Positions 1,496 to 40,589 of a DNA stretch of 45,078 nt are shown in pieces. Origin of the DNA: Bacillota bacterium (GTDB taxonomy: Bacteria > Bacillota > Dethiobacteria > DTU022 > UBA8154); contig JAUSPO010000185.1 of assembly GCA_030656575.1 (NCBI GenBank), forward strand, positions 1-45,078, written 5' to 3'. The position numbers were made by a program, and so were the translations under genes. Below the pieces are notes generated by a model. It ran no database searches. It was not told the DNA's origin and saw nothing but the letters and a program-made list of their open reading frames with translations. Every line of letters begins with the position of its first letter. Position 1 is the first letter of the stretch.

Positions 1496-2140
1496 TAAGC
1501 CACACGCTATGCGTGGGAGAACGGAATAGGCAGAGCCAGTGCCCATGATTAAACAGCCCTCATCTGCTATACTGACTATGGTTTCGCAGGCCAAAGTCAC
1601 AAGCAGAGGAGGGCATTCATAGACAGTTCGAGTCTATCACATACGAAATGGAATTGCACGTACCATGTCGTATTCATTCCCAAATACCGAAGAAAAGTCA
1701 TGTATGGGGAGCTACGCACGGAGATCCGGGATATTATTCGCAAATTATGCGAGTATAAAGCAGTGTCCATTGTAGAAGGAAGCGTCTGTGTGGATCACGT
1801 GCATTTATGTGTTCGAATTCCGCCAAAACTAAGTGTATCCGAATTTATGGGATATTTAAAGGGGAAAAGTGCTTTGATGATATTTGATCGGCATCCCGAG
1901 TTTAGGCAGAAAGGGAACCGCCATTTCTGGGCGAAAGGGTACTACGTCAATACGGTGGGACGAAACGAAGAAGAGATCAGAAAGTATATCAAGAACCAAG
2001 TAGAAGCAGATCAGATCGAAGACAACATAAAGAAGTGATGCCCCTTTAGGGGTGTGTAAGCGGTAATGGCTTGTGAAACCACGCCTTTAGGCGTTGCCAG
2101 TATTATGCCCTTATAGGGCTAAAATCAAGCCACCCCACAG
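1496..2140 (+). mobile_element. IS200/IS605-family element, tnpA only
   Basis: A single-gene IS200-like element. On the left, a subterminal hairpin (CCACACGC, then GCGTGG, about 1500-1516) precedes the transposase gene. On the right there are three compact hairpins: CCCCTTTAGGGG near 2041, ACGCCTTTAGGCGT near 2083, and GCCCTTATAGGGC near 2107. AAGCCAC occurs at both ends, which helps set the approximate limits. No tnpB is present. Such elements move as single-stranded circles and make no target duplication, so the ends are estimates. The right end abuts, and probably supplies the stop codon of, the minus-strand permease gene, so insertion seems to have occurred at that gene's 3' end. Confidence 0.75.
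1619..2038 (+). CDS. tnpA: IS200-type Y1 (HUH) transposase TnpA, non-canonical start
   Basis: Single-strand DNA transposase. The HUH metal site is HVH in the DHVHLCVRIPPK region, and the catalytic tyrosine lies in the GYYVNTVG region with the usual FWAKG before it. Full-length relatives begin about 27 residues before the first ATG (1700). The frame is open upstream and encodes SLSHTKWNC then YHVVFIPKYRRK, exactly the conserved N-terminus. The codon where translation should begin is ATA (1619), eight bases after an AGGAGGG. Counting from there gives 139 residues, the normal family length. Either the start mutated from ATG and the copy is disabled, or a rare start is used. The product identity is certain; activity is doubtful. 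Confidence 0.82.
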   Translation: MDSSSLSHTKWNCTYHVVFIPKYRRKVMYGELRTEIRDIIRKLCEYKAVSIVEGSVCVDHVHLCVRIPPKLSVSEFMGYLKGKSALMIFDRHPEFRQKGNRHFWAKGYYVNTVGRNEEEIRKYIKNQVEADQIEDNIKK

Positions 2141-2891
2141 TAATTCAGTACACGGACTTGGACCGGCTGGAGGTGTTCTATGCTAATTATGATTACTGGC
2201 AGGAGCAGGTGAACTGCCATCCCGGCAGCCAGGTGAATGCCGTAACTGTTATTATCAGCCACGGCAAGGAAAGCCGAAGAGGCCCAGTGGGGCGGGAAAA
2301 TACCGGTAAGCAGGCTCCAGGGAAAGACCAGCAGGTACATCCCCAGGGGGGGGCTAACATGATCACGTTCACCCCCTTAGAGAGGGCTATTCCTTCCACC
2401 CGGTTGGTTGCAAAGGCGCCCAGGAAAAGGGCGGTAATGGGTGTCAGGATGGATGACATGGCCAGCACCAGGGATAATGGAAAAAGGGGCAGGGATACCG
2501 GGCTAACCAGTGGCAGGAGCAGCAGGCCGAACAGAAAACTCAGGGCGGTGGGCACGACCAGGCGGATCAGCAGGTATCCTGTTCGGGTAACGGGAGTTAC
2601 GGAGAGGTACGCCAGCAGCCCCCCTTCCCTCTCCTCCAGCAAAACCAGGCCAGCCATGGCTCCCATGATTATGGGAGTTATGATCGGGAAAAAGCTTATT
2701 ATGAAGACGTGGTGTTCCTCAAGGGCAAAGCCGAGAAACTCTTTTAAGAGAGGTGCAGCCCAGGGAAGGCCGTAGTGCAGCAACGCTGTTACCAGAAAGG
2801 GAGTCGCCAGGACCATGATTATGATTGGATCACGCGGCGCATTGCGCATATCAGCTTTTACCAGGGATGCCGCCTTATGGAGTCTCACCAC
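2125..2891 (-). pseudogene. ABC transporter permease, frameshifted near C-terminus
   Basis: Second permease of a minus-strand ABC exporter, with about six hydrophobic segments and a VLLEEREGGLLAYLSVTPV region typical of ABC-2 type permeases. The frame from 2891 runs to 2193, but its last about 54 residues are not membrane-like. The expected ending (FPWSLLTGIFPPHWASSAF and a final hydrophobic helix HLLLPVIIIS) lies in another frame that stops at 2125. The two frames meet at a run of eight G (2346-2353; C8 in the gene). Nine would restore one protein of about 255 residues. Either a sequencing error, a real mutation or a phase-variable tract. The start overlaps the preceding permease by seven bases. 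The stop codon lies in the IS200 right end. Confidence 0.75.
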
Positions 2892-3589
2892 GAAACCATC
2901 CCCCTTTCCACTACGTAGCGGTAGAAACTCTTTTTAGCCCAGAGAAATGCTAACACCACCCAAAACGCCAGCGACAACGTGCTTAAAGCTGCGTCAGTCG
3001 GGGAGATGCCCCGGAAAGATCCCACTAACAGGAGCATGCCGCCCCGTCCCGGAGCCAAATAGAGCAGGGGATGGGTGAAGAGGCCAAAGTATTCCGCCAG
3101 GGGAAAGACAAATACGGGAGTCAGCAGGAAAGAAACCAGGATGAAGCTGTTCAGGGTACGGCTGCGAACGGCCAGTGTAAATCCCACCAAGGTAAAAATG
3201 GGAGCGGTCAGGCTTACCCCGGTCAGCAGCAGGAGGGGATTAAATGGAACCCTCACGCCCAGCCAAGCTATGGCCAGGCTGGTACCCAGGGAGATGAGGG
3301 AAAGGGATAAGGCCTTGGCGAGAAGGTACTCTCCCGGACGCAAGGGGGTAACCAGGAAGCCTTCCAGCAAGTTCTGCTTTCTTTCAAAAAGAACCAGTCC
3401 CCCCACGAAGAAGAAACCTAGAACAGCAGGATCGGTAAAGAGCAGGACAGGCGCCAGAAAAGTCCCCGGCTCCGGGGGCAGGAGGCGCAGCAGCACGATG
3501 TAAAAAACTGTAATGAGAAAGTAAACGGCGTAAAACCCGTGGCGGTACTGGAAAAGCATATCTGCTTTTATGGCAGCCAAAGCCCTCAT
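2885..3589 (-). CDS. ABC transporter permease (ABC-2 type)
   Basis: Integral membrane protein of 234 residues with about six predicted hydrophobic segments. It contains LVLFERKQNLLEGFLVTPL, the cytoplasmic loop shared by ABC-2 permeases and matched by EEREGGLLAYLSVTP in the neighbouring permease. It probably forms a heterodimeric channel with that neighbour, driven by the ATPase encoded immediately upstream. The gene overlaps the ATPase gene by four bases and the next permease by seven, so the three are translationally coupled. The arrangement (ATPase plus two short permeases) resembles the drug-export ABC sets of the Rv2686c-Rv2688c type, but the substrate cannot be read from sequence. Confidence 0.85.
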   Translation of the reverse strand: MRALAAIKADMLFQYRHGFYAVYFLITVFYIVLLRLLPPEPGTFLAPVLLFTDPAVLGFFFVGGLVLFERKQNLLEGFLVTPLRPGEYLLAKALSLSLISLGTSLAIAWLGVRVPFNPLLLLTGVSLTAPIFTLVGFTLAVRSRTLNSFILVSFLLTPVFVFPLAEYFGLFTHPLLYLAPGRGGMLLLVGSFRGISPTDAALSTLSLAFWVVLAFLWAKKSFYRYVVERGMVSW

Positions 3590-4443
3590 TTTAGTTCCCT
3601 CCCCGTCAGCCGGATAAATATATCTTCAAGGGTGGCCTCCTGAGTGTGGATCGTCTCCACCGGGTTTTCCCGGATCAAGCTGAGAAAGGCCGGGTTCTCC
3701 CCGATCCCCTCCACGGGAAATTCTTGGGATAAGAGGTCTTTCTTCAGGCGGCACTCCACCCGTACCTTTTTCTCCCCCCACTCTATCTTGAGGTTGCGAG
3801 GGGAGTCGACGAGCTTAATGAAGCCGTACACCATGAAGGCCACCCGGTCGCTGATAGCCTCGGCGGCAAACATGTCGTGGGTGGAGAGGAAGATGGTTTT
3901 GCCTTTTTGCTTCTCCTCCAGGAGAATATCCTTAAGACGGCGGGTACTGGAAGGATCCAGCCCCGATGTGGGTTCGTCCAGAAACACTATCTCCGGGTCG
4001 TGTAAAATGGCCCGGATGAAGTTGAGCCTTACCTTCATCCCCTTGGAAAAAGCCCCCACCCGGGTATTGGCCGCATCTTCCAGTCCGACCCGCTCCAGGA
4101 GATCGTGGGGATCCCTGGTCAGTCCGGCATAAAGGGAAGCAAAAAAACGCAGGTTTTCCAGAGCGGTAAAACGCTCGTAGAGGTTGGGGACTTCGTAGGC
4201 GACTCCGATTTTTTCGTAAAAATCCGGCTTGCTCCTGGACATATCCCGACCCAATACACGCACTGTTCCGCTGTAACCTTTAAGTAAGCCGAACAATATT
4301 TTTTGGACGGTGCTCTTCCCCGCCCCCGAAGGACCCAGCAGGGAGAAGATCTCCCCTCGTTCCACCTCAAAGTTAATCCCTTTAACTACTTCCTGTTTCG
4401 CTCCCGGGTACGTAAAATTAAGATCTTTAACCAGTATTCCCAT
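3586..4443 (-). CDS. ABC transporter ATP-binding protein
   Basis: Cytoplasmic ATPase subunit of 285 residues. Walker A is GPSGAGKST at residues 37-45. The signature is FSKGMKVRLN, a KGM variant of LSGGQ common in ABC-2 exporters. Walker B is IVFLDEPTSGLDP, followed by the switch histidine in STHD. A C-terminal extension of about 80 residues follows the nucleotide domain, as in drug and antibiotic exporters. It is the first gene of the minus-strand operon, preceded by AAGGAG, and overlaps the first permease by four bases. It is likely to power export of a small lipophilic compound; specificity is unknown. Confidence 0.9.
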   Translation of the reverse strand: MGILVKDLNFTYPGAKQEVVKGINFEVERGEIFSLLGPSGAGKSTVQKILFGLLKGYSGTVRVLGRDMSRSKPDFYEKIGVAYEVPNLYERFTALENLRFFASLYAGLTRDPHDLLERVGLEDAANTRVGAFSKGMKVRLNFIRAILHDPEIVFLDEPTSGLDPSSTRRLKDILLEEKQKGKTIFLSTHDMFAAEAISDRVAFMVYGFIKLVDSPRNLKIEWGEKKVRVECRLKKDLLSQEFPVEGIGENPAFLSLIRENPVETIHTQEATLEDIFIRLTGRELK

Positions 4444-4689
4444 TTCTGTGTTCTCCTTCTTTCCCCATTAATCCCGTCCGTTATATTTACAGCTATTATT
4501 CAATGTAGGCAATAAAAAGCAATAACAACCCTTTTTTAAAAGGGGAATCTTAAATAACTTGAATAACTTGAATGAAAAAGCCCTTTATGATACAACAAAA
4601 GCAGACAAATGGATTTAAAACTAATGTTCAACTGCAGAATACATCTAATACTTTATTGAAAAAACTAATAATCGGGAGGAAAAAATGAA

Positions 4690-5163
4690 ATGAACATTGG
4701 AATTATTGTTTACTCTCAAACGGGTAACACTTTTGCCGTTGCCCAAAAGCTTAAAGAGAAACTTGATTCAGCAGGTCATTCAGCGAACATCGATCGGGTA
4801 ACAATCACCGGCGAAGCAACCCCGGGGAACAAAAACTTTCAGTTGATTACTCTTCCAGCGGTCGACCAATATGATGCGCTTATCTTCGGTTCTCCGGTAC
4901 AGGCTTTTTCCCTGCACCCGGCAATGATCGCTTATCCGAATCAGCTTTCATCGCTGCAAGGTAAAAAAATTGCCTGTTTTGTGACCAAACAGTTACCCTT
5001 TTACTGGACGGGGGGAAACCGGGCAATTGCTCAGATGAAAAAGATTTGTGAATCAAAAGGGGCAGCAGTTTGTGGAACAGAAATCGTTGTTTGGTCCAAA
5101 TCGCAACGTGATCATAACATCAGTAGATGTATTGAAAGCCTGAGCAGCCAAATTGCAAATTAA
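4690..5163 (+). CDS. Flavodoxin-family protein
   Basis: A 157-residue protein starting MNIGIIVYSQTGNTFAVA. SQTGNT is the FMN phosphate loop, and FGSPVQAFSLHPAM corresponds to the second flavin loop. Length fits a short-chain flavodoxin-like domain. A GGGAGG precedes two overlapping candidate starts: the first ATG (4685) opens only a two-codon frame (ATG AAA TGA), so the second ATG, inside that frame, must be used; this could cause weak coupling by reinitiation. It lies 52 bases upstream of an FMN-binding-domain gene, and both proteins appear to handle flavin, so they may act together in membrane-linked electron transfer. Confidence 0.82.
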   Translation: MNIGIIVYSQTGNTFAVAQKLKEKLDSAGHSANIDRVTITGEATPGNKNFQLITLPAVDQYDALIFGSPVQAFSLHPAMIAYPNQLSSLQGKKIACFVTKQLPFYWTGGNRAIAQMKKICESKGAAVCGTEIVVWSKSQRDHNISRCIESLSSQIAN

Positions 5164-5215
5164 TACTTGCAGTATTCAGGTAATCACCTTGTAAAATTAA
5201 GGGGAGCGATTTTCT

Positions 5216-5620
5216 TTGAAAAAGAAAACGGCAACCATTCTCGCTGTCTTGTCGGTAGTGGTCGTAGTTGGTTACTTTGTTGCAACCGGCATGATAAAAA
5301 ACATTGAATCAAATCTTGCGCAGTTGGCAGATTTACCTGTACTAAATGTTGATCTTTCTAAAATAAAAGATGGCACATATGCCGGTAATTACATGGTGTT
5401 TCCCGTTTCAGCAGAAGTTGAAGTCACCGTAGAGAACCATAAGATTACGGGAATTGAAATAATAAAACACACTCACGGCCAGGGAGCGACAGCTGAAATA
5501 ATCCCAGCAAAAGTGGTCGAAAACCAAACTTTGGAAGTTGATACGGTCTCAGGTGCCACCTATAGCAGTAAAGTAATATTGAAAGCAATAGAGAATGCCC
5601 TGCTTAGCGCCAGTGAGTAG
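5216..5620 (+). CDS. FMN-binding domain protein (membrane-anchored)
   Basis: A 134-residue protein with one N-terminal hydrophobic helix (residues about 7-25) and an extracytoplasmic FMN_bind domain of the type found in NqrC/RnfG. DTVSGAT at residues 109-115 fits the ApbE flavin-transferase site, where FMN is attached covalently through a phosphoester to the threonine (T115 here). The start is TTG at 5216, behind GGGGAG; no ATG or GTG is suitably placed. It probably acts as a one-flavin electron carrier on the outer face of the membrane. Its neighbour is a flavodoxin-like gene. No apbE gene is in the window, so the flavin transferase must be elsewhere. Confidence 0.82.
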   Translation: MKKKTATILAVLSVVVVVGYFVATGMIKNIESNLAQLADLPVLNVDLSKIKDGTYAGNYMVFPVSAEVEVTVENHKITGIEIIKHTHGQGATAEIIPAKVVENQTLEVDTVSGATYSSKVILKAIENALLSASE

Positions 5621-5927
5621 CAATACAATTTTGAACCCGGAGAACCGGCTGCGATAATGCCCATCTTCAGATGACAGCGACGCCTTTATTTTCCACGCTT
5701 ATGTTTTTACAGGTAAAATTAACTTGACTCCATGACAGTGAGAATAGAGATCAATAACCAGACGACCGTATTTAGTGATATATTAAATAGTTTACAGTAG
5801 GAATTTTGACAAGTTTTAGCGAATAGATAGTAAGTCCAGATATTTGTAAAATAATTAGTTCTTTCCAATGGCGTTTCTTTTGATCATTTACCCTTTTGTG
5901 GATAATTTAAGAATGAGGGAAAACAAC

Positions 5928-6773
5928 ATGGCAAAAAATAAATTAGTTATGCCTGTAGTAAAGTGGGTGGGTGGAAAACGGCAAATAATTAATCTAATAA
6001 CAAAATACGTCCCTAAAAAATTTTCCACATATTATGAACCTTTCGTAGGCGGTGGAGCTGTTTTATTTGAACTCCAGCCAAAAAAGGCTGTTGTAAATGA
6101 TATTAATGCCGAGTTAATAAATATTTACGAGGTTATTAGGGATCGAGTAGAAGAATTGATTGGGGATTTAAAGCAGCATCGAAACGAAGCGGATTATTTT
6201 TACGATATAAGGGAGAAAGACCGGGACAAGAACGAGTACAGTGGATGGACACCTGTCCAAAAAGCTTTGAGAATTATATATCTTAACAAAACTTGTTATA
6301 ATGGCTTGTTTAGGGTTAATAAAGCAGGAGAGTTCAATGCGCCCTTTGGTTATTACGTAAACCCTAACATCGTAAACGAAATTACTTTACGAGCAGTAAG
6401 CATATACTTCAACAAAGCCAAGATATCATTTTACTGTAAAGATTTTGAAGAAGTTTTAAAAGGAGCGAGAAAAGGGTCATTTGTTTATCTTGACCCTCCG
6501 TACGATCCAGTTTCTGCTACTTCGAGCTTCACAGGTTACGACAAGGGCGGATTTGGTAAGGACGAGCAAATAAGGCTTAAAAAAACATGTGATAAGCTAA
6601 ACAAACAGGGCATAAAATTCCTTCTTTCCAATTCAGCTACAGATTTTATACAAGACCTTTACCTCAACAAAGAATACAAAATAGAAGTAATCCAGGCTAA
6701 AAGAGTTATTAATTCTCAAGCCGACAAACGGGGCGAAATTGACGAAGTACTGGTGATGAATTATGAGCCTTGA
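5928..6773 (+). CDS. DNA adenine methyltransferase, D12 class (Dam/DpnM-like)
   Basis: N6-adenine DNA methyltransferase of about 281 residues. VKWVGGKRQI (residues 11-20) and EPFVGGGAV form the SAM-binding site, and DPPYDP (D189) is the catalytic motif. This order (SAM motif first, then DPPY) defines the alpha/D12 group that includes Dam and DpnM, which usually modify GATC; the target here is not proven. I chose ATG 5928, after GAGGG, because conserved sequence begins there; in-frame ATGs at 5868 and 5913 would add up to 20 residues not typical of the family. The stop overlaps the next frame, which looks like a restriction endonuclease remnant, suggesting a former type II system. Confidence 0.9.
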   Translation: MAKNKLVMPVVKWVGGKRQIINLITKYVPKKFSTYYEPFVGGGAVLFELQPKKAVVNDINAELINIYEVIRDRVEELIGDLKQHRNEADYFYDIREKDRDKNEYSGWTPVQKALRIIYLNKTCYNGLFRVNKAGEFNAPFGYYVNPNIVNEITLRAVSIYFNKAKISFYCKDFEEVLKGARKGSFVYLDPPYDPVSATSSFTGYDKGGFGKDEQIRLKKTCDKLNKQGIKFLLSNSATDFIQDLYLNKEYKIEVIQAKRVINSQADKRGEIDEVLVMNYEP

Positions 6774-7047
6774 CTTAACAAAAAATGATATGGCCTGGGA
6801 AAAGCTGTTTAATAAGTACAATATATTGAAGAGCATAGAAAGCTCTGGCTCTTTTTTAATTACTGCAGCCCAAATAAACGAATTTAGAGAAGCAAGATTA
6901 ATGACCAAATTCGACCAAAGAATAAACCTTCCTAAGCTTTTTTCTCAAAACCAATTAGCTATTTTACCTATTACAAGAAGCTTAACTGATATGCTAACTA
7001 AGAAAAAGAAGAAGATCAGCATACCAAAAAATTTACCTATGGACTAA
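6763..7047 (+). pseudogene. Probable type II restriction endonuclease, truncated remnant
   Basis: A 94-residue frame overlapping the methyltransferase stop by 11 bases, the arrangement expected for a cognate endonuclease. The stretches KNDMAWEKLFNKYNILKSIE, FREARLMTKFDQRINLPK and NQLAILPITR resemble, from memory, the N-terminal region of restriction endonucleases paired with D12-class methyltransferases; such proteins are usually around 300 residues. After ILPITR the sequence turns into a lysine-rich tail (KKKKKISIPKNLPMD) and stops. The likely reading is a gene that lost its middle and catalytic part by deletion. An alternative is a complete small protein of unknown role. The family assignment is not checked against a database. 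Confidence 0.5.
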
Positions 7048-7075
7048 GAGTTTGTTTTAAGGAAAGGAGGGGAAA

Positions 7076-7552
7076 ATGGTTTTTTCATCAATTATTCCGG
7101 TATTGTTTATTGTATTAGTCGTTTTGATTGTCGTAGGGATAAAAGTTGAGTCAAAAAAAGGAGGCGAAGAAGTGATAAAAAAGGTTTATATATACTTGGT
7201 ATTATTTGCAACATTAATGATGACCATTGGCGGAAGTGTGGCGGCGTTCATGGCCATTGCAGACATTATTACACCCGTGCCATCATACCATCAGTCTTTC
7301 GAGGATTTTAAGAGGGGAATGGAGCGGCCTTATAGTCCTGAAGTTACGGATACAGCAAATCTTTCTGAAGAAGAATTAAGAGCAAGATACGATACCATGA
7401 TATTAGAGCAAAGAGAAAACCAGATTGCGAGAGGAAAAAACTCTCTCGTTAAGAGTTTTGGCTGGATTGTAATTCCCCTGCCGATTTTTATATATTTTCA
7501 GCGACGGCTGGCAAGGGATGATACACGGAAAAATGACCGAGATGACGAATGA
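7076..7552 (+). CDS. Small membrane protein of unknown function (DUF5671-like?)
   Basis: A 158-residue protein with three hydrophobic segments: residues about 3-22, 36-62, and 125-140. The stretch KVYIYLVLFATLMMTIGGS at the second segment resembles the repeat unit of DUF5671-type membrane proteins, but this is a weak match. Between segments two and three is an acidic loop with SEEELRARYDTMI. The start has AAAGGAGGGG upstream. A second good ribosome site (AAAGGAGG) lies inside the gene near 7160, before a GTG at 7171, so a shorter form lacking the first helix is possible. It overlaps the following AlkD-like gene, hinting at coupled translation. Confidence 0.55.
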   Translation: MVFSSIIPVLFIVLVVLIVVGIKVESKKGGEEVIKKVYIYLVLFATLMMTIGGSVAAFMAIADIITPVPSYHQSFEDFKRGMERPYSPEVTDTANLSEEELRARYDTMILEQRENQIARGKNSLVKSFGWIVIPLPIFIYFQRRLARDDTRKNDRDDE

Positions 7553-8258
7553 TCAAAAAACAATTAAAAGTGAGCTGAATAAATACGCCGATTCTGAAAA
7601 AGCGGGATTTCTTCTCCGTTATTTCAAGGTTTTTCCCGGCGGCTATGGGGAAGGGGATCTGTTCATTGGTGTAAAAGTTCCCTATCAGAGAATAATCGCC
7701 CGGAAATACTATCTGGAAATTCCTTTACAAGAAGTGGAAAGACTGCTGCAGGATCCTGTTCACGAGTGCCGCCTCACCGCTCTGTTTATCCTTTCCCTGC
7801 GTTTCGAAAAGTCACGCACGGAAGAGGATAAAAAGGAGATAGTGGACCTCTACCTGTGGAACCTTTCTTATGTAAATAACTGGGATCTGGTGGATTCCTC
7901 GGCAGAGAAGATACTTGGCCCATATTTAATGGATAATAAGAAAGATCTGCTCTACGAATTAGCTGAATCGGGAGATCTGTGGAAACAGAGAACGGCTATG
8001 ATGACGACCTTTCATTTTATCAAGAACGGTCGCTTTACGGAGACTCTGGATCTTGCGGAGGGCTTTCTGCAGCATAAACATGATCTCATGCACAAGGCGG
8101 TGGGCTGGATGCTTCGGGAGATTGGGAAGCGGGACTTTTCTGTGGAATACGAATTTTTACAAAAGCACTACCGGAAGATGCCCCGGACAATGCTTCGATA
8201 TGCCATCGAAAAATTCGAGCCTCAACTGAGAGAGAAATTTTTAAAAGGGCTCCTGTAA
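7518..8258 (+). CDS. AlkD-like DNA alkylation repair protein (HEAT-repeat glycosylase)
   Basis: About 240 residues made largely of helical HEAT-like repeats. Signature stretches of the AlkD family are visible: VKVPYQRIIARKYY near the N-terminus, the NNWDLVDSSA segment, WKQRTAMMTTF, and MHKAVGWMLREIGKRD near the C-terminus. AlkD excises positively charged alkylated bases such as 7-methylguanine and 3-methyladenine without flipping the base. Three in-frame ATGs (7518, 7533, 7542) are possible starts, all inside the end of the previous gene; 7542 gives the shortest protein and fits family length best. Cytoplasmic repair role inferred from the family. Confidence 0.85.
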   Translation: MIHGKMTEMTNDQKTIKSELNKYADSEKAGFLLRYFKVFPGGYGEGDLFIGVKVPYQRIIARKYYLEIPLQEVERLLQDPVHECRLTALFILSLRFEKSRTEEDKKEIVDLYLWNLSYVNNWDLVDSSAEKILGPYLMDNKKDLLYELAESGDLWKQRTAMMTTFHFIKNGRFTETLDLAEGFLQHKHDLMHKAVGWMLREIGKRDFSVEYEFLQKHYRKMPRTMLRYAIEKFEPQLREKFLKGLL

Positions 8259-8290
8259 TTATAGGAAAGTCGATTCATGGAGGTAAAAAA

Positions 8291-8773
8291 ATGTCAAATT
8301 ATCTTTATAAAGAGAGCAATTTTTCCAAATTTACGGCAGGAATATTTGTTCTTGTTATTGGCGGCCTTCTTTTTACGTTCATTTACCAAATTTTAGTGGG
8401 TCCCCTGGGAACCAACCCGGCATCAAATGGTTTTTTAGTTATTATGATCCTTATCTTTTTAGCTGCTGCCGTAAATTTCAGCAGGCTGAGCATTACAATT
8501 AACCCTCGTGGAGTTCTTGTTGGTTATGGAATTATAAAACATATAATTCCCTGGGAAAGTATTGAAGGGTGCTATTTAGATAAGACTTCTGCTGTCATGT
8601 ACGGTGGATGGGGTATACGATTGGGTAGAGTAAAAGGAAAATGGAGGGTGGTCTATAATATTATAGAAGGCGACCGGGTGGTACTGATGTTAAATAGAGG
8701 TTGGTACAGGGAGTTTGTTTTTTCCACCAGGAATCCGCAGAAAGTGATCGATATTATTAAGAATCGTAAATAA
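8291..8773 (+). CDS. Membrane protein with PH-like domain, unknown role
   Basis: A 160-residue protein with two N-terminal hydrophobic segments (about residues 15-35 and 47-64) and a soluble C-terminal half beginning SRLSITINPRGVLVGYGIIK and ending with a helix KVIDIIKNRK. This layout is that of small bacterial proteins with a PH-like beta domain, but no functional residue is recognisable. The start is supported by GGAGG eight bases upstream. An intrinsic terminator follows 41 bases after the stop, so this gene probably ends a transcription unit. Confidence 0.55.
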   Translation: MSNYLYKESNFSKFTAGIFVLVIGGLLFTFIYQILVGPLGTNPASNGFLVIMILIFLAAAVNFSRLSITINPRGVLVGYGIIKHIIPWESIEGCYLDKTSAVMYGGWGIRLGRVKGKWRVVYNIIEGDRVVLMLNRGWYREFVFSTRNPQKVIDIIKNRK

Positions 8774-34331: not shown

Positions 34332-34829
34332 ATGGGTTTGTGTGAGTGTCATGAGACGGCAGCAAAGGTAGAGGAAAGTTTTGAATATGACAGGTTAGAG
34401 TCGTTGTTGCAGGGATTCCTGGGGAAAAAAGGAGCAATGGTCCCCATCCTGCAAGCAATTCAGTCTGAATTCGGATACCTGCCGCGTCCTGCAATGGAGT
34501 ATACAGCAAAAAGGCTGCGTATTCCCGTGAGCAGGATTTTTGGAGTAGCCACTTTTTATGCCCAGTTTCACCTTCACCCGCGGGGCAAATATATCGTCAG
34601 AGTTTGCCGCGGTACTGCCTGCCACGTCAGGGGGGTATCCAAAGTAGCCGATAGGATGCAGGAGCTTCTGGGTGTCGGCGTAGGACAGACAACTGAAGAT
34701 TTGAAGTTTACTTATGAAGAAGTAGCCTGCATTGGTGCCTGCGGCCTTGCCCCGGTCATGATGATCAACGACAAGACTTATGGCAAACTTACCACGGATA
34801 AAGTAAAAGGAATTTTGAAGGATTATTAA
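34332..34829 (+). CDS. NuoE-like [2Fe-2S] subunit of formate dehydrogenase complex
   Basis: A 165-residue thioredoxin-fold subunit. The cysteine pairs are VCRGTACHVRG (C-x4-C) and ACIGACGLAP (C-x3-C), which ligate one [2Fe-2S] cluster. It is the first gene of the formate dehydrogenase operon and would pass electrons to the NuoF-like subunit. AAAGGAGG lies just two bases before ATG 34332; TTG 34338 would have better spacing and lose two residues. Homologues occur in Moorella-type NADP formate dehydrogenase and in bifurcating hydrogenases. Confidence 0.9.
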   Translation: MGLCECHETAAKVEESFEYDRLESLLQGFLGKKGAMVPILQAIQSEFGYLPRPAMEYTAKRLRIPVSRIFGVATFYAQFHLHPRGKYIVRVCRGTACHVRGVSKVADRMQELLGVGVGQTTEDLKFTYEEVACIGACGLAPVMMINDKTYGKLTTDKVKGILKDY

Positions 34830-34861
34830 GTCCTGTGCTGAGGAAAGGGGAGAAGAAGCTT

Positions 34862-35041
34862 ATGAATAGATTTATTGAACCCTGCTGCAAGGATTGTTTT
34901 AACAGCAAAGAAAAGCCCTGTGAACAGTTTATAGAGTGCTGTCTTTCTGGCCCCTTGTGCCATGACAGCGAAGAATGTTCTGCCAGGCGTAAGGCAATTG
35001 TGAAGAAGCTTGCTCACAGTCCCGGTTATCTGAAACATTAA
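34862..35041 (+). CDS. Cysteine-rich small protein (59 residues) in the FDH operon
   Basis: Eight cysteines in 59 residues: C8, C9, C12, C20, C26, C27, C33 and C39, with a single histidine at 34, followed by a basic tail (SARRKAIVKKLAHSPGYLKH). Two CC pairs and CxxC spacing suggest a zinc or Fe-S site. No ferredoxin consensus (CxxCxxC) is present. AAAGGGGAG sits before ATG 34862; a GTG 27 bases upstream would give an unlikely extension. It lies between the NuoE- and NuoF-like genes, 32 bases after the former and 29 before the latter, so it is cotranscribed. No family is recognised; it may aid assembly or electron transfer. Confidence 0.7.
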   Translation: MNRFIEPCCKDCFNSKEKPCEQFIECCLSGPLCHDSEECSARRKAIVKKLAHSPGYLKH

Positions 35042-35070
35042 AAGTAAGCTAAGTGGAAGGAGGAAAAGAA

Positions 35071-36855
35071 TTGTACGAAAAACATATTCTCATCTGTGCC
35101 GGAACAGGCTGCATTTCCTCGGGAGCCCTCGATGTTGAAGAGGCACTGATCGAAGAACTAAAAAAGCACAATCTGCAGGATAAAGTGCGCATAATTATGT
35201 CGGGATGTCACGGGTTTTGTGAAAAAGGTCCTCTTTTTATAGTTTACCCTGAGGATATTTTTTATTGTGAAGTAACGGCAGAAGATATGCCGGAACTGGT
35301 AGAGGAATATCTTGTGAAGGGTAATATTGTGGAGAGGCTCCTCTACAAAGATCCCACCACTGATAAAAGGGTTATTTCCCATGAAGAGATTCCTTTCTAC
35401 AGCAAGCAAATGAGGTTGGTTTTGCGCAACTGCGGAGTAATAGACCCGGAAAATATTGATGAATATATTATTCGCGGTGGTTATTCGGGCATGAAAAAGG
35501 CTTTAGAGATGGAACCCATAGAGGTTGTCAATGCGGTAAAAAGCTCCGGTTTGCGAGGACGCGGAGGTGCAGGCTTTCCTACGGGTATGAAGTGGGAATT
35601 TGCCTACCGCAGCCAGAATGATAAAAAATATATGGTATGTAATGCTGACGAGGGAGACCCGGGGGCATTTATGGACCGTAGTGTGTTGGAAGGCGATCCT
35701 CATGCTGTGCTGGAGGGGCTCGTAATTGGCGGCAGGGCTATCGGCAGTGATGAAGCCTATATTTATGTACGGGCAGAGTATCCCCTTGCTATAAAACGCC
35801 TGAGGACAGCCATTGCCCAGGCCGAAGAATATGGACTTTTAGGCAAGAACATTTTCAATTCGGGAATTGATTTTAAGATCAATATTAAAGAAGGCGCGGG
35901 AGCCTTTGTCTGCGGTGAAGAAACCGCTCTGCTGGCTTCTATAGAGGGTGAAAGGGGCTTGCCCCGTCCCCGGCCGCCTTTTCCTGCCGTTAAAGGACTC
36001 TGGGGCAAGCCCACGTGTATTAACAACGTGGAAACCCTTGCCAATGTTCCTTTGATCCTGCGTAAGGGGGCTGACTGGTACAGTTCTATAGGTACTGAGG
36101 GCAGCAAGGGAACAAAAATATTCGCCCTTACAGGTAAAATAAACAATACGGGCCTTTGTGAAGTCCCCATGGGTATTAGCCTGAGGGAGATTGTATATGA
36201 TATCGGCGGCGGTATCAGGAACGGTAAAAAATATAAAGCAGTACAGATCGGAGGTCCTTCAGGAGGGTGTATTCCTGAAGAACTGCTGGATCTGCCAATT
36301 GATTTTGATTCCCTAACGGCCAAAGGGGCCATGATGGGTTCCGGTGGAATGGTTGTTATGGACGAAGAAACCTGTATGGTGGACCTGGCCCGCTATTTTC
36401 TTTCTTTTACTCAGAACGAATCCTGTGGTAAATGTACACCCTGCAGGGAAGGGACGAAGCGTATGCTGGAGATCCTGCTGCGCATTACCCAGGGGAAAGG
36501 TGAGCCGGAAGATATTCCCCGCCTGGAAAAACTGGCGGTATCTGTCAAGGACAGCTCACTTTGCGGCCTGGGCCAGACTGCACCTAACCCGGTACTCACT
36601 ACGCTGCGATATTTCCGGGATGAATATGAAGCTCATATCTTTGATCGCCGCTGCCCGGCCGGGCAGTGCAAGGATCTGCTCACTTATTATATCGATGCGG
36701 AACTGTGCATCGGCTGTCGTGCCTGTATCAAAGCCTGTCCTGCTGAGGCAATAACCGGCGAAAAGAAGGAACCGCATGTTATAGATGAAGCAAAATGTAT
36801 AAGTTGTGGGGCCTGTTTTGATAAGTGCAAGAAGGACGCTGTAAAAACAAAATAA
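35071..36855 (+). CDS. NuoF-like NAD(P)H/FMN subunit with C-terminal ferredoxin domain
   Basis: A 594-residue diaphorase subunit. Residues about 5-90 form a thioredoxin-like [2Fe-2S] domain (ICAGTGCISSG and MSGCHGFCEKGP). GLRGRGGAGFPTGMKW and GAGAFVCGEETALLASIEG bind NAD(P)H and FMN. S451-CGKCTPCREGT supplies the [4Fe-4S] ligands. The last 60 residues hold two further [4Fe-4S] motifs (CIGCRACIKACP and CISCGACFDKC). The layout matches HydB/HndC/HylB. I chose TTG 35071 because AAGGAGG precedes it; GTG 35053 would put the ribosome site inside the gene. It links the catalytic subunit to NAD(P)H, possibly with ferredoxin by bifurcation. Confidence 0.92.
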   Translation: MYEKHILICAGTGCISSGALDVEEALIEELKKHNLQDKVRIIMSGCHGFCEKGPLFIVYPEDIFYCEVTAEDMPELVEEYLVKGNIVERLLYKDPTTDKRVISHEEIPFYSKQMRLVLRNCGVIDPENIDEYIIRGGYSGMKKALEMEPIEVVNAVKSSGLRGRGGAGFPTGMKWEFAYRSQNDKKYMVCNADEGDPGAFMDRSVLEGDPHAVLEGLVIGGRAIGSDEAYIYVRAEYPLAIKRLRTAIAQAEEYGLLGKNIFNSGIDFKINIKEGAGAFVCGEETALLASIEGERGLPRPRPPFPAVKGLWGKPTCINNVETLANVPLILRKGADWYSSIGTEGSKGTKIFALTGKINNTGLCEVPMGISLREIVYDIGGGIRNGKKYKAVQIGGPSGGCIPEELLDLPIDFDSLTAKGAMMGSGGMVVMDEETCMVDLARYFLSFTQNESCGKCTPCREGTKRMLEILLRITQGKGEPEDIPRLEKLAVSVKDSSLCGLGQTAPNPVLTTLRYFRDEYEAHIFDRRCPAGQCKDLLTYYIDAELCIGCRACIKACPAEAITGEKKEPHVIDEAKCISCGACFDKCKKDAVKTK

Positions 36856-36878: not shown

Positions 36879-39548
36879 ATGGTTTCTTTAACTATAAATG
36901 GTCAGAGTGTGGAAGTAGAACCGGAAGCTACAATCTTACAGGCGGCTGAAAAACTGGGAATTTTTATTCCTACTTTCTGCTATGACCCGGAACTTACTCT
37001 GGTGGGTGCCTGCCGGATGTGCGTGGTAGAAGTGGAAAAGGCCCGTGCCCTGATGGCTTCCTGCTGTACCCCCGTAATGGATGGTATGGTGGTGCATACT
37101 GAATCAGAACGGGTTATTGCGGCCCGCAAAGAAAATTTAAATCTTTTGATAGCCAACCACCCTCTGGATTGCCTTACCTGTGAGAAAACCGGTGCCTGCC
37201 GCTTGCAGGACTATTGTTATCAATATGGTATTTCAGAAAGTGATTATCACGGAGATAAAAAGGATTATGAGCTTGACGATACCAATCCATTCTTTATCAG
37301 GAATATGAACAAATGTATTCTCTGTGGTCTTTGTGTGCGCACGTGCCATGAGATCAATGGGGCCGGAGCCGTTGAATTTATGAACAGAGGTTTTGATTCC
37401 AAGGTCACAGCGGCGTTTGATGATCCACTGGAGAATTCATCCTGTGTATTCTGCGGTATGTGTGTTGATGCCTGCCCGGTAGGAGCTTTAACACCGAAGC
37501 ATGGTATTGGTAAAGGACGCCCCTGGGAACTGAAGCGTGTAAAAACTGTCTGTCCCTACTGTGGAACCGGCTGCGGCCTGGAGTTATATGTGAAAGGTAA
37601 TACAGTAGTGGGTGCAAAAGGAGACGTAACCAGTCCCGCCAGCCGGGGGCAGACCTGTGTGAAAGGGCGGTTCGGTTTTGATTTCCTGCAAAGTCCTGAG
37701 CGCCTGAAGTCACCCCTTATCAGGAAAAACGGTGAACTGGTGGAGTCATCCTGGGATGAGGCCCTGGACCTCATTGCTAAAAAGTTTAAGGAGGTGAAGG
37801 GCACAGAACTGGCGGGATTAGCTTCAGCCCGCGTTACGAATGAGGAGAACTATCTCTTCCAGAAGCTTTTACGCTCACTGGGATCAAATAATGTTGACCA
37901 CTGTGCCCGTCTCTGACACGCTCCAACAGTAGCCGGTCTGGCTACATCTTTTGGCAGCGGCGCGATGACCAACAGCATCGGAGAAATTGAAAATGCAAAG
38001 GCGCTGTTTGTAATGGGTTCCAATACTACAGAGACCCATCCAGTACTGGGATATAGAATGAAAATGGCGAAAAAGAAGGGTGCCTCCCTTATTGTAGCGG
38101 ATCCGAGGAAGATCGAACTGGCAGACCATGCCGATGTCTTCTTGCAGCTGCGCCCGGGGACCAACGAAGCCCTGATTAACGGGATTATTAATGTAATAAT
38201 CGAGGAAAGGCTCTCAGATGATCAGTTTATCGCGGAGAGAACTGAGGGCTATGAAGAAATGGCAGCTGCTGTTAAGAAGTATACTCCAGAGTATGTGGAA
38301 GGAATTACCGGGGTAGCGGCCGGGGATATTCGCAAAGCCGCACGACTTTATGCCGGGGCGGAAAGCGCCGGAATCTACTATACTATGGGTATAACCCAGC
38401 ACACCAATGGGACCAATACTGTTATGGCTATTGCTAACCTTGCCATGGTAACCGGTAATATGGGCAAACCTTCAAGTGGTATAAATCCTTTAAGAGGACA
38501 GAACAATGTGCAGGGAGCCTGTGACATGGGAGGCTTACCCGTGGTCTTTACAGGTTATCAGAGAGTTGATAACGAGGCTGCCTTGTCGAAATTTGAAAAG
38601 GCCTGGGGTGTAAAGCTTAATTCACGCCCGGGATTAACTGTAACAGAAATCATGGACGGTATTCTTAATGGCGAGATAAAAGCCCTGTATGTCATGGGCG
38701 AAAACCCTGCTCTAAGTGACGCTAACATTCACCATGTCATGGAAGCACTGGAAAAGGTGGAGTTTTTGGTCGTTCAGGATATTTTCCTCACTGAAACGGC
38801 AGCCAAGGCTGATGTTGTTCTCCCTGCTGCCGCATTTGCCGAAAAAGTTGGTACTTTTTCCAATACGGAGCGGCGTGTGCAAATGGTGCGCAAGGCTGTT
38901 AACGCACCCGGTGAAGCAAAAGCAGATTGGCTTATTTTACAGGAACTGGCAAATAAGCTCGGTATGGAATGGCATTATGAAGGACCGGATCATATTTTCC
39001 AGGAGATTGCTCAACTCACCCCAGCTTATGCAGGTATAAGCTATCAGCGCCTTGAGCAGGAAGGCGGTCTGCAGTGGCCATGCCCGAGTGCGGATCATCC
39101 CGGGACTTTATACCTTCACGAAGGTCAGTTCTCCAGAGGGAAAGGCCTTTTTACCCCTGTGGAATACCTGCCTCCGGCAGAAGAGACTGACCAGGAATAC
39201 CCTCTGGTGCTTACCACGGGACGTAACCTTTATCACTACCATACAGGCTCAATGACAAGGCAGAGCAAGCCTTTGAATGCCTTTAAACCCGAGGAATTTG
39301 CGCAGATTAGCAGAGAAGATGCTGACAGGCTGGGCATTAAAAACGGGGATCTGGTAAAAGTATCTTCAAGGCGTGGTGAAGTGGAAGTAAAGGCAGATGT
39401 AACGGAAGTAGTGCCTACTGGAGTAATTTTTATGACCTTCCACTACCATGAGGTCCCTGTAAACGTACTCACAAATAATCAGGTAGATCCCATAGCTAAG
39501 ATTCCCGAGTTAAAGGTCTGTGCTGTTAAGCTGGAAAAAGTAGGATAA
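36879..39548 (+). CDS. fdhA: Selenocysteine-containing formate dehydrogenase catalytic subunit
   Basis: An 889-residue molybdenum/tungsten enzyme oxidising formate to CO2 or the reverse. In order: an N-terminal [2Fe-2S] domain (CYDPELTLVGACRMC), a His-Cys cluster (HPLDCLTCEKTGAC), two [4Fe-4S] motifs (CILCGLCVRTCHE, CVFCGMCVDACP), then CPYCGTGCGLEL of the molybdopterin domain. The active site reads VDHCARL-U-HAPTVAGL, with in-frame TGA at 37914-37916 as Sec346 followed by the catalytic His. Standard gene finding wrongly ends one gene at 37916 and starts another at 37965. The C-terminal domain (TGRNLYHYHTGSMTRQS, VFMTFHYHE-like) binds the cofactor. A SECIS hairpin follows the UGA. It is downstream of NuoE/NuoF-like subunits and followed by fdhD. 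Confidence 0.95.
37914..37954 (+). promoter_or_regulatory. Selenocysteine UGA and bacterial SECIS element
   Basis: UGA at 37914-37916 is followed by a hairpin: outer CCA (37923-37925) pairs with TGG (37952-37954), apical stem GTAGCC (37929-37934) with GGCTAC (37940-37945), and loop GGTCT (37935-37939). The GGUCU apical loop is the SelB contact in the Escherichia coli fdhF SECIS; the arrangement here matches it closely. The arm begins about 12 bases after the UGA, as in bacteria. Confidence 0.9.
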
Positions 39549-39557
39549 GAACAAAAT

Positions 39558-39653
39558 GGGGACATTCCTCGAAAAGAGGACCTGGCCTAGCGGTGAGAAA
39601 GTCAACAGAACCGTCCCCGTTGCCAACAAAAATGAGCCAAGCGAAACGTCCCC
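39558..39653. repeat. GGGGAC/GTCCCC-rich repeat stretch
   Basis: The gap after fdhA has GGGGAC (39558-39563) and two GTCCCCG copies (39613-39619, 39648-39654), plus a GAGCCA/TGGCTC stem spanning the second copy. Words match those at 25536-25566. It has no credible coding frame. Confidence 0.45.
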
Positions 39654-39664
39654 GTGGCTCACTG

Positions 39665-39693
39665 AAAAATTCCCTCTTTTGGAGGGGATTTTT
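39665..39693 (+). terminator. Intrinsic terminator between fdhA and fdhD
   Basis: AAAAATTCCCTC and GAGGGGATTTTT form a 12-base stem (one T-G pair) around a five-base loop, ending in five T. The A-rich left arm makes it bidirectional. It lies 117 bases after fdhA, so fdhD may have separate or partial read-through expression. Confidence 0.75.
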
Positions 39694-39776
39694 CTATGTG
39701 GAGAGGAGTTAAACTATCTATGCAGAAATAAATTAAAGAACGAAAAGGTATACTAGGGAAACGGGGGGCAAAAAAA

Positions 39777-40589
39777 GTGGAAAGAGAAAATCTTCAGGGA
39801 CAGGACATTCCACAGGGCACTTCAGAGGTTGAAATTGTGCGTGTCAGGGATTCAGAGAGAAATAATGAAAAGGATCTTGTTGTTACGGAAACGCCTCTCA
39901 CTGTTTTCCTTAATAACAAGGAATTTGTTACTTTATTATGCTCTCCGGAGAAACTTGATTTTCTGGCCGTTGGTTTTTTAAGGTCGGAGGGCCTGATCCA
40001 GGGTTCTTCTGATCTTAGAGATCTGCATGTAGACCATCAAAAGGGCATAGTATATGTGAGGACGGCAGACCAAAGTGATCTCACCGAAAAACTTTACGGA
40101 AAAAGGACGATAACTTCCGGGTGCGGCAAGGGGACCATATTTTTTAACGTGCTTGATTCTCTGCAGAGCAGGCCTGTTGAATCAAACCTGAAAATAGAAG
40201 CTGGCAGATTGCTGAAGTTAATGTCTGAGCTGCAGAATGATTCAATACTTTTTAAAACTACGGGAGGAGTCCACAGTGCTGCTCTTGCTGACAGGGATAA
40301 AATTCTGTTTTCCAGCGAGGATATTGGGCGGCATAATGCTGTGGATAAAATCGCAGGGGAGTGCCTTCTGAAAAATATATCTTTGGATGACAAGATTCTT
40401 TTGTCAAGCGGCCGTCTTTCTTCCGAAATAGTTATTAAGGGGGCAAAGCTGCGACTGCCGTTTATCGTTTCCAGGTCAGCACCCACATCTCTGGGTGTGG
40501 AACTAGCAGAAAAATTAGGTGTTACCCTTGTCGGTTTTGCCAGGGGCAGGAGGTTAAATATTTATTCCCACGCAGATCGAATCATCTAA
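39777..40589 (+). CDS. fdhD: Formate dehydrogenase accessory sulfurtransferase FdhD
   Basis: Transfers sulfur from the cysteine desulfurase to the molybdenum cofactor of formate dehydrogenase, needed for activity. 270 residues: ETPLTVFLNNKEFVTLLCSP in the N-terminal part, TSGCGKGTIF as the active-site loop, FKTTGGVHSAAL, SSEDIGRHNAVDKIAGE and ILLSSGRLSSEIV and RSAPTSLGVELAEKLG at the end. The active loop has one Cys here, where the enteric enzyme has CxxC. It follows fdhA after a terminator. Start GTG 39777 in a purine-rich context (GGGGGGC AAAAAAA). The neighbour context supports the role fully. Confidence 0.93.
   Translation: MERENLQGQDIPQGTSEVEIVRVRDSERNNEKDLVVTETPLTVFLNNKEFVTLLCSPEKLDFLAVGFLRSEGLIQGSSDLRDLHVDHQKGIVYVRTADQSDLTEKLYGKRTITSGCGKGTIFFNVLDSLQSRPVESNLKIEAGRLLKLMSELQNDSILFKTTGGVHSAALADRDKILFSSEDIGRHNAVDKIAGECLLKNISLDDKILLSSGRLSSEIVIKGAKLRLPFIVSRSAPTSLGVELAEKLGVTLVGFARGRRLNIYSHADRII

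Follow-up and report, generated by a model that had tools for sequence, protein, structure and literature searches.

How much energy acetogens and syntrophs have at their disposal depends in part on electron-bifurcating formate dehydrogenases, in which the handling of NADH and ferredoxin by BfuB is still debated. In the portions of Schut et al. (2022, PMC9304861) considered here, extra Fe-S clusters in BfuB are the mark of a bifurcating BfuB, and complexes with a formate dehydrogenase domain within BfuA are assigned to Type 1 Fdh-Bfu. The operon described here lies in a stretch of 45,078 nucleotides from a Bacillota bacterium (the window). It shares with the Type 1 Fdh-Bfu (BfuABC) of those portions the order BfuC-BfuB-BfuA and the formate dehydrogenase domain in BfuA, and its NuoF resembles the bifurcating BfuB described there in having extra N- and C-terminal Fe-S domains. 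The operon differs in that a gene for a cysteine-rich protein of 59 residues stands between nuoE and nuoF; the same portions of the paper describe neither an extra cysteine-rich protein nor a prefix, and the terms "zinc" and "small protein" do not occur in its text.

The small protein matches NCBIfam NF040902.1 (NuoF_pre_CCxxC), a model named "CCxxC motif-containing NuoF prefix domain-containing protein" that states no function. The likeness consists in a sequence score above the cut-off, the CCxxC motif (C8 C9 x x C12) and the link to NuoF, nuoF being the next gene. The difference is that the model name speaks of a NuoF prefix, whereas in the window's class the protein is encoded by a separate gene; "prefix" in the sense of one polypeptide with NuoF does not apply to the window, where the ORF is separate and in another frame. 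The family membership stands, however, because the model itself scores separate genes over its cut-off. Below, we use prefix for the domain in either form.

Among solved structures, HydB of HydABC (PDB 7p5h, 7q4v, 8a6t) and BfuB (9mqx, 8oh5, 9bov, 9n5u) have the NuoF core in common with a fused homologue of the small protein, and their best alignments to this homologue begin past the last prefix cysteine; none of the solved HydB/BfuB chains matched here has a match to the cysteine-rich prefix. In the C-terminal part of Thermotoga maritima HydB, the portion of PMC9499530 considered here places a Zn site formed by three Cys and one His.

The formate dehydrogenase operon and its small gene

The features of the locus are collected in Table 1. 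The Pfam layout of NuoF comprises an N-terminal 2Fe-2S_thioredx domain, the FMN/NAD domain, NADH_4Fe-4S, and C-terminal Fer4 hits (2x[4Fe-4S]). The operon thus holds BfuC, a BfuB bearing additional Fe-S domains at both its N- and C-terminal ends and, by Pfam, a BfuA with a formate dehydrogenase domain, which are the features of Type 1 Fdh-Bfu. Judged from these sequences, the complex is presumably an electron-bifurcating selenocysteine formate dehydrogenase. The in-frame UGA of fdhA (37914-37916, junction DHCARL-UGA-HAPTV) is read as selenocysteine, and the presence of selB in the source genome (391 bits) fits this reading. For nuoF, the TTG at 35071 is a likelier start than the GTG at 35053 that opens the mechanical ORF, because an AGGAGG is located at 35058-35063. 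The gap between fdhA and fdhD (39549-39776) contains a mechanical ORF of 66 amino acids (39556-39756) and has no Rfam match.

Table 1. Coordinates of the features of the operon within the window.
Feature	Position	Strand	Evidence
nuoE-like gene (BfuC), thioredoxin-like [2Fe-2S] subunit	34332..34829	+	PF01257, 178 bits
Ribosome-binding site of the small gene	34840..34852	+	purine-rich GAGGAAAGGGGAG, ATG 9 nt downstream
Gene for 59-aa CCxxC NuoF-prefix protein, 7 conserved Cys and conserved His34	34862..35041	+	NF040902.1, 54.8 bits; 82-sequence alignment; AlphaFold
nuoF-like gene (BfuB)	35071..36855	+	Pfam including PF01512 and PF10589; start picked by inspection
fdhA (BfuA joined to formate dehydrogenase domain)	36879..39548	+	two same-frame ORFs, Pfam
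Selenocysteine insertion element	37911..37969	+	Rfam SECIS_3, E 8.8e-09, 47.8 bits (below the gathering score of 63)
fdhD, formate dehydrogenase accessory sulfurtransferase	39777..40589	+	TIGR00129, 215.6 bits

The small gene encodes 59 amino acids (MNRFIEPCC...YLKH) followed by TAA. A preliminary description had presented it as a gene with its own ribosome site, placed between NuoE- and NuoF-like genes and encoding eight cysteines. All of this agrees with what we find: the ribosome-binding site precedes the ATG, the Pfam matches on either side identify the neighbours (Table 1), and the cysteines are exactly those listed (C8, C9, C12, C20, C26, C27, C33, and C39). The gene is real and under strong purifying selection. 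Its dN/dS is 0.13 in the comparison with the nearest relative (JAGVAS010000151.1, 83% identity), the one relative for which dS is clearly unsaturated, all other pairs having near-saturated or saturated dS. This value and the conservation described below reject a chance ORF. An antisense gene is rejected as well, as no antisense frame is open across all homologues (the best is open in 30 of 55). That the small ORF is joined to NuoF through a frameshift or by read-through was rejected by inspection only, given the different frames and NuoF's own AGGAGG; the homologous locus L103, where the NuoF frame opens only past the end of the prefix, also counts against read-through.

Family, conserved residues and predicted fold

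The match to NF040902.1 (cut-off 45) covers positions 1-50 of the 53 in the profile. The protein had been called unrecognised; this part of the preliminary description has to be given up, since the domain already has a name in NCBIfam. By its profile match, the small protein is a fresh member of a catalogued, unstudied family. Matches to this family occur in 54 of 99 related genomes and, in a phylum-wide sample, in 37 of 398 genomes (36 over the cut-off); a search of 14 control genomes returned no match. In the open-access papers searched the term "NF040902" has no match, and among the titles and abstract openings listed from them no paper on the prefix domain was recognised.

The alignment of distinct sequences from the fetched loci (82; 55 separate proteins and 27 fused to NuoF) has ten positions that are invariant throughout: C8, C9, C12, C20, C26, G30, P31, C33, H34, and C39. 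The eight-cysteine pattern initially proposed is therefore upheld for seven cysteines, to which an invariant histidine is added, but not for C27: 30 of the 82 sequences have R, S or L in its place. Position 27 is C in 51, R in three and S in one of the separate proteins, and R in 24, L in two and C in one of the fused ones. Because it varies, C27 probably does not serve as a metal ligand. The remaining seven Cys and one His add up to the ligands that two metal sites with four ligands each would need.

Neither a ferredoxin (Fer2, Fer4, or relatives) nor another known metal fold could be assigned. The window protein matches no Pfam family at E <= 1, and ferredoxin families are absent from the nine stray Pfam families matched by its 82 relatives. 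A PDB sequence search with the protein found no match, the family profile retrieved nothing from the PDB sequences but an engineered protein at E 1.3, and Foldseek found no match in the PDB for the predicted structure. AlphaFold models the small protein alone with pLDDT 89.8 and pTM 0.70; the first third is irregular, and helices follow at residues 23-29, 37-50, and 54-58. In the model of a fused homologue (649 residues, pLDDT 89.5, pTM 0.89), which matches solved BfuB chains, the helices 23-29 and 37-50 recur, with block means of 82-91 over residues 1-50.

Linkage to NuoF and loss of the prefix

The 60 neighbourhoods that we fetched (L064-L123) contain 61 copies of the prefix, and in all 61 NuoF is adjacent to the prefix or in the same frame. 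Seven of the eight cysteines and the position in the operon, which the preliminary description had left to be traced in related operons, are conserved. nuoE is found upstream of the prefix at every one of the 60 loci except L121. In the window's class the prefix has its own gene, situated between those for NuoE and NuoF, and in other parts of the phylum it forms the N-terminal end of a fused NuoF (27 of the 82 distinct sequences); compared with the fused homologues, the standalone protein ends about where NuoF begins.

A formate dehydrogenase-type MopB frame lies downstream of 53 of the 61 copies. Among the eight copies that have none, five are in stretches that end early (L075, L067, L078, L091, and L116), and at L110 the MopB frame lies upstream. 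At L122 and L123 the prefix is carried by the NuoF of FeFe-hydrogenase operons, in which the large subunit is an FeFe-hydrogenase. Locus L121 is, from its gene layout, a rearranged complex: the prefix-bearing NuoF is fused C-terminally to a GltD/NfnB-like flavoprotein (4968-8351), and a NuoE-like sequence lies inside the FdhA frame (1704-4952).

At ten loci (L081, L084, L087, L088, L090, L094, L097, L100, L172, and L173) a divergent FdhA-like large subunit lies downstream of nuoF. In it the Sec/Cys motif HCARL(U/C)H is replaced by DS(Y/F/H)(T/S)(R/K)HCH, YLPY(G/S)ENN stands in place of the PLRGQNN stretch, and a short Cys-rich tail takes the place of the MGD-binding C-terminal domain (L084 and L172 are without PF01568). 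The subunit is possibly no longer a formate dehydrogenase. The prefix is retained at eight of the ten loci. Given these loci and the FeFe-hydrogenase partners at L122 and L123, a strict tie of the prefix to formate chemistry is rejected. That the prefix stays with NuoF while the large subunit changes counts in favor of its being a module of NuoF.

The source genome (3 Mb, G000) has nine full-length NuoF-like genes, and the prefix occurs on one only. The eight other NuoF/BfuB-like paralogs (contigs C176, C125, C13, C85, C73, C25, C122, and C6) are presumed to belong to a large set of bifurcating complexes. Two of them (L164 and L168) have MopB-type large subunits and no prefix, and the prefix therefore marks one branch and not all formate dehydrogenase-like complexes.

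In a NuoF tree of 90 rows, calculated with a quick method after rows with fewer than 380 aligned residues and duplicates had been dropped and with L122 left out, one starred group unites 18 fused sequences with one without prefix, and a second unites 40 with a standalone prefix and two without. Both groups sit within one starred group of 61 of the 90 rows; the fused L121 and L123 fall outside the latter, on poorly resolved or long branches. At L171, L172, and L173 the NuoF is nested in the prefix clade, the prefix is missing, and nuoF follows directly 3' of nuoE. On the assumption that the common ancestor of the 61-row group had the prefix, the tree implies at least two losses. Of the conserved columns, only two of 215 in NuoF and none of 44 in NuoE show a deviation at one or more of these three loci, and no compensating change in NuoF or NuoE was found in the columns compared where the prefix is lost. 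As NuoF and NuoE are otherwise unchanged, the prefix is dispensable and accessory; for the same reason no docking surface shows up on either protein. That the prefix is optional also argues against an indispensable role in electron transfer.

Role of the prefix protein

The fusion, adjacency and co-inheritance with NuoF lead us to read the 59-residue protein as a prefix domain with a gene of its own, one that belongs at the N-terminus of a NuoF/HydB/BfuB-type subunit. In a Type 1 Fdh-Bfu composed of NuoE, NuoF, and a selenocysteine FdhA, acting on formate, NAD+, and ferredoxin, it would be an accessory subunit present in stoichiometric amount. The prefix may bind NuoF beside the N-terminal thioredoxin-like [2Fe-2S] domain, which is the point of covalent attachment in other lineages. 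About two metal sites, with the seven Cys and one His as ligands, would hold its fold together, and the metal would most likely be structural and zinc-like. The prefix might stabilize or gate the NADH/ferredoxin end of the complex. It would take no part in formate chemistry, because it is kept with hydrogenase subunits and with the divergent FdhA that has no MGD-binding domain. We give even chances to this reading as a whole, that is, to an add-on of NuoF docked by the [2Fe-2S] domain, with about two metal sites and a structural or gating role.

In a rival reading, the prefix would hold a redox-active Fe-S cluster through which electrons could enter or leave the bifurcating BfuBC core at an additional point, for example to ferredoxin. 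Seven invariant cysteines in a span of 32 residues, encoded in an electron-transfer operon, an attachment next to a [2Fe-2S] domain, and the occurrence of the prefix on NuoF of both formate dehydrogenase and FeFe-hydrogenase complexes all speak for such a port. However, the Pfam and PDB fold searches described above returned nothing that resembles a ferredoxin, close relatives have lost the prefix with their conserved NuoF and NuoE columns intact, and the invariant His beside Cys33 would suit zinc at least equally well. We consider the cluster possible, although on the doubtful side. Rather improbable, in our estimate, is its more specific form, a detachable redox module in which C8, C9, C12, C20, C26, C33/H34, and C39 would constitute a new Fe-S ligand pattern and provide a ferredoxin-linked port on BfuBC in one branch, lost at least twice. 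A zinc-like structural site is favored only by analogy, namely with the site in T. maritima HydB, together with the missing ferredoxin match.

The preliminary description had suggested a subunit or an assembly factor of a formate dehydrogenase/diaphorase complex. Membership in the operon is borne out, and the fusions to NuoF speak for the subunit. As an assembly factor or metallochaperone, the protein would assist NuoF in acquiring FMN or its Fe-S clusters and, where separate, would not be a lasting subunit; it is indeed small, Cys-rich, dispensable in some lineages, and encoded immediately 5' of nuoF. A permanent fusion to NuoF in a third of the distinct sequences makes a stoichiometric module the likelier of the two, and the other NuoF paralogs of the source genome manage without such a neighbor; an assembly factor is, we think, unlikely. 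The invariant adjacent pair C8-C9 and the optional presence of the prefix would also be compatible with a redox- or metal-sensing cap that switches NuoF activity through a disulfide or metal exchange, but seven Cys and a His exceed the needs of a simple thiol switch, and we regard such a cap as very improbable.

The prefix gives one branch of BfuB a conserved N-terminal Cys/His module that the matched solved BfuB chains lack, and as such it constitutes a defined target. Its fused, separate, and lost states amount to a natural experiment, and its role is testable by swapping or deleting the module.
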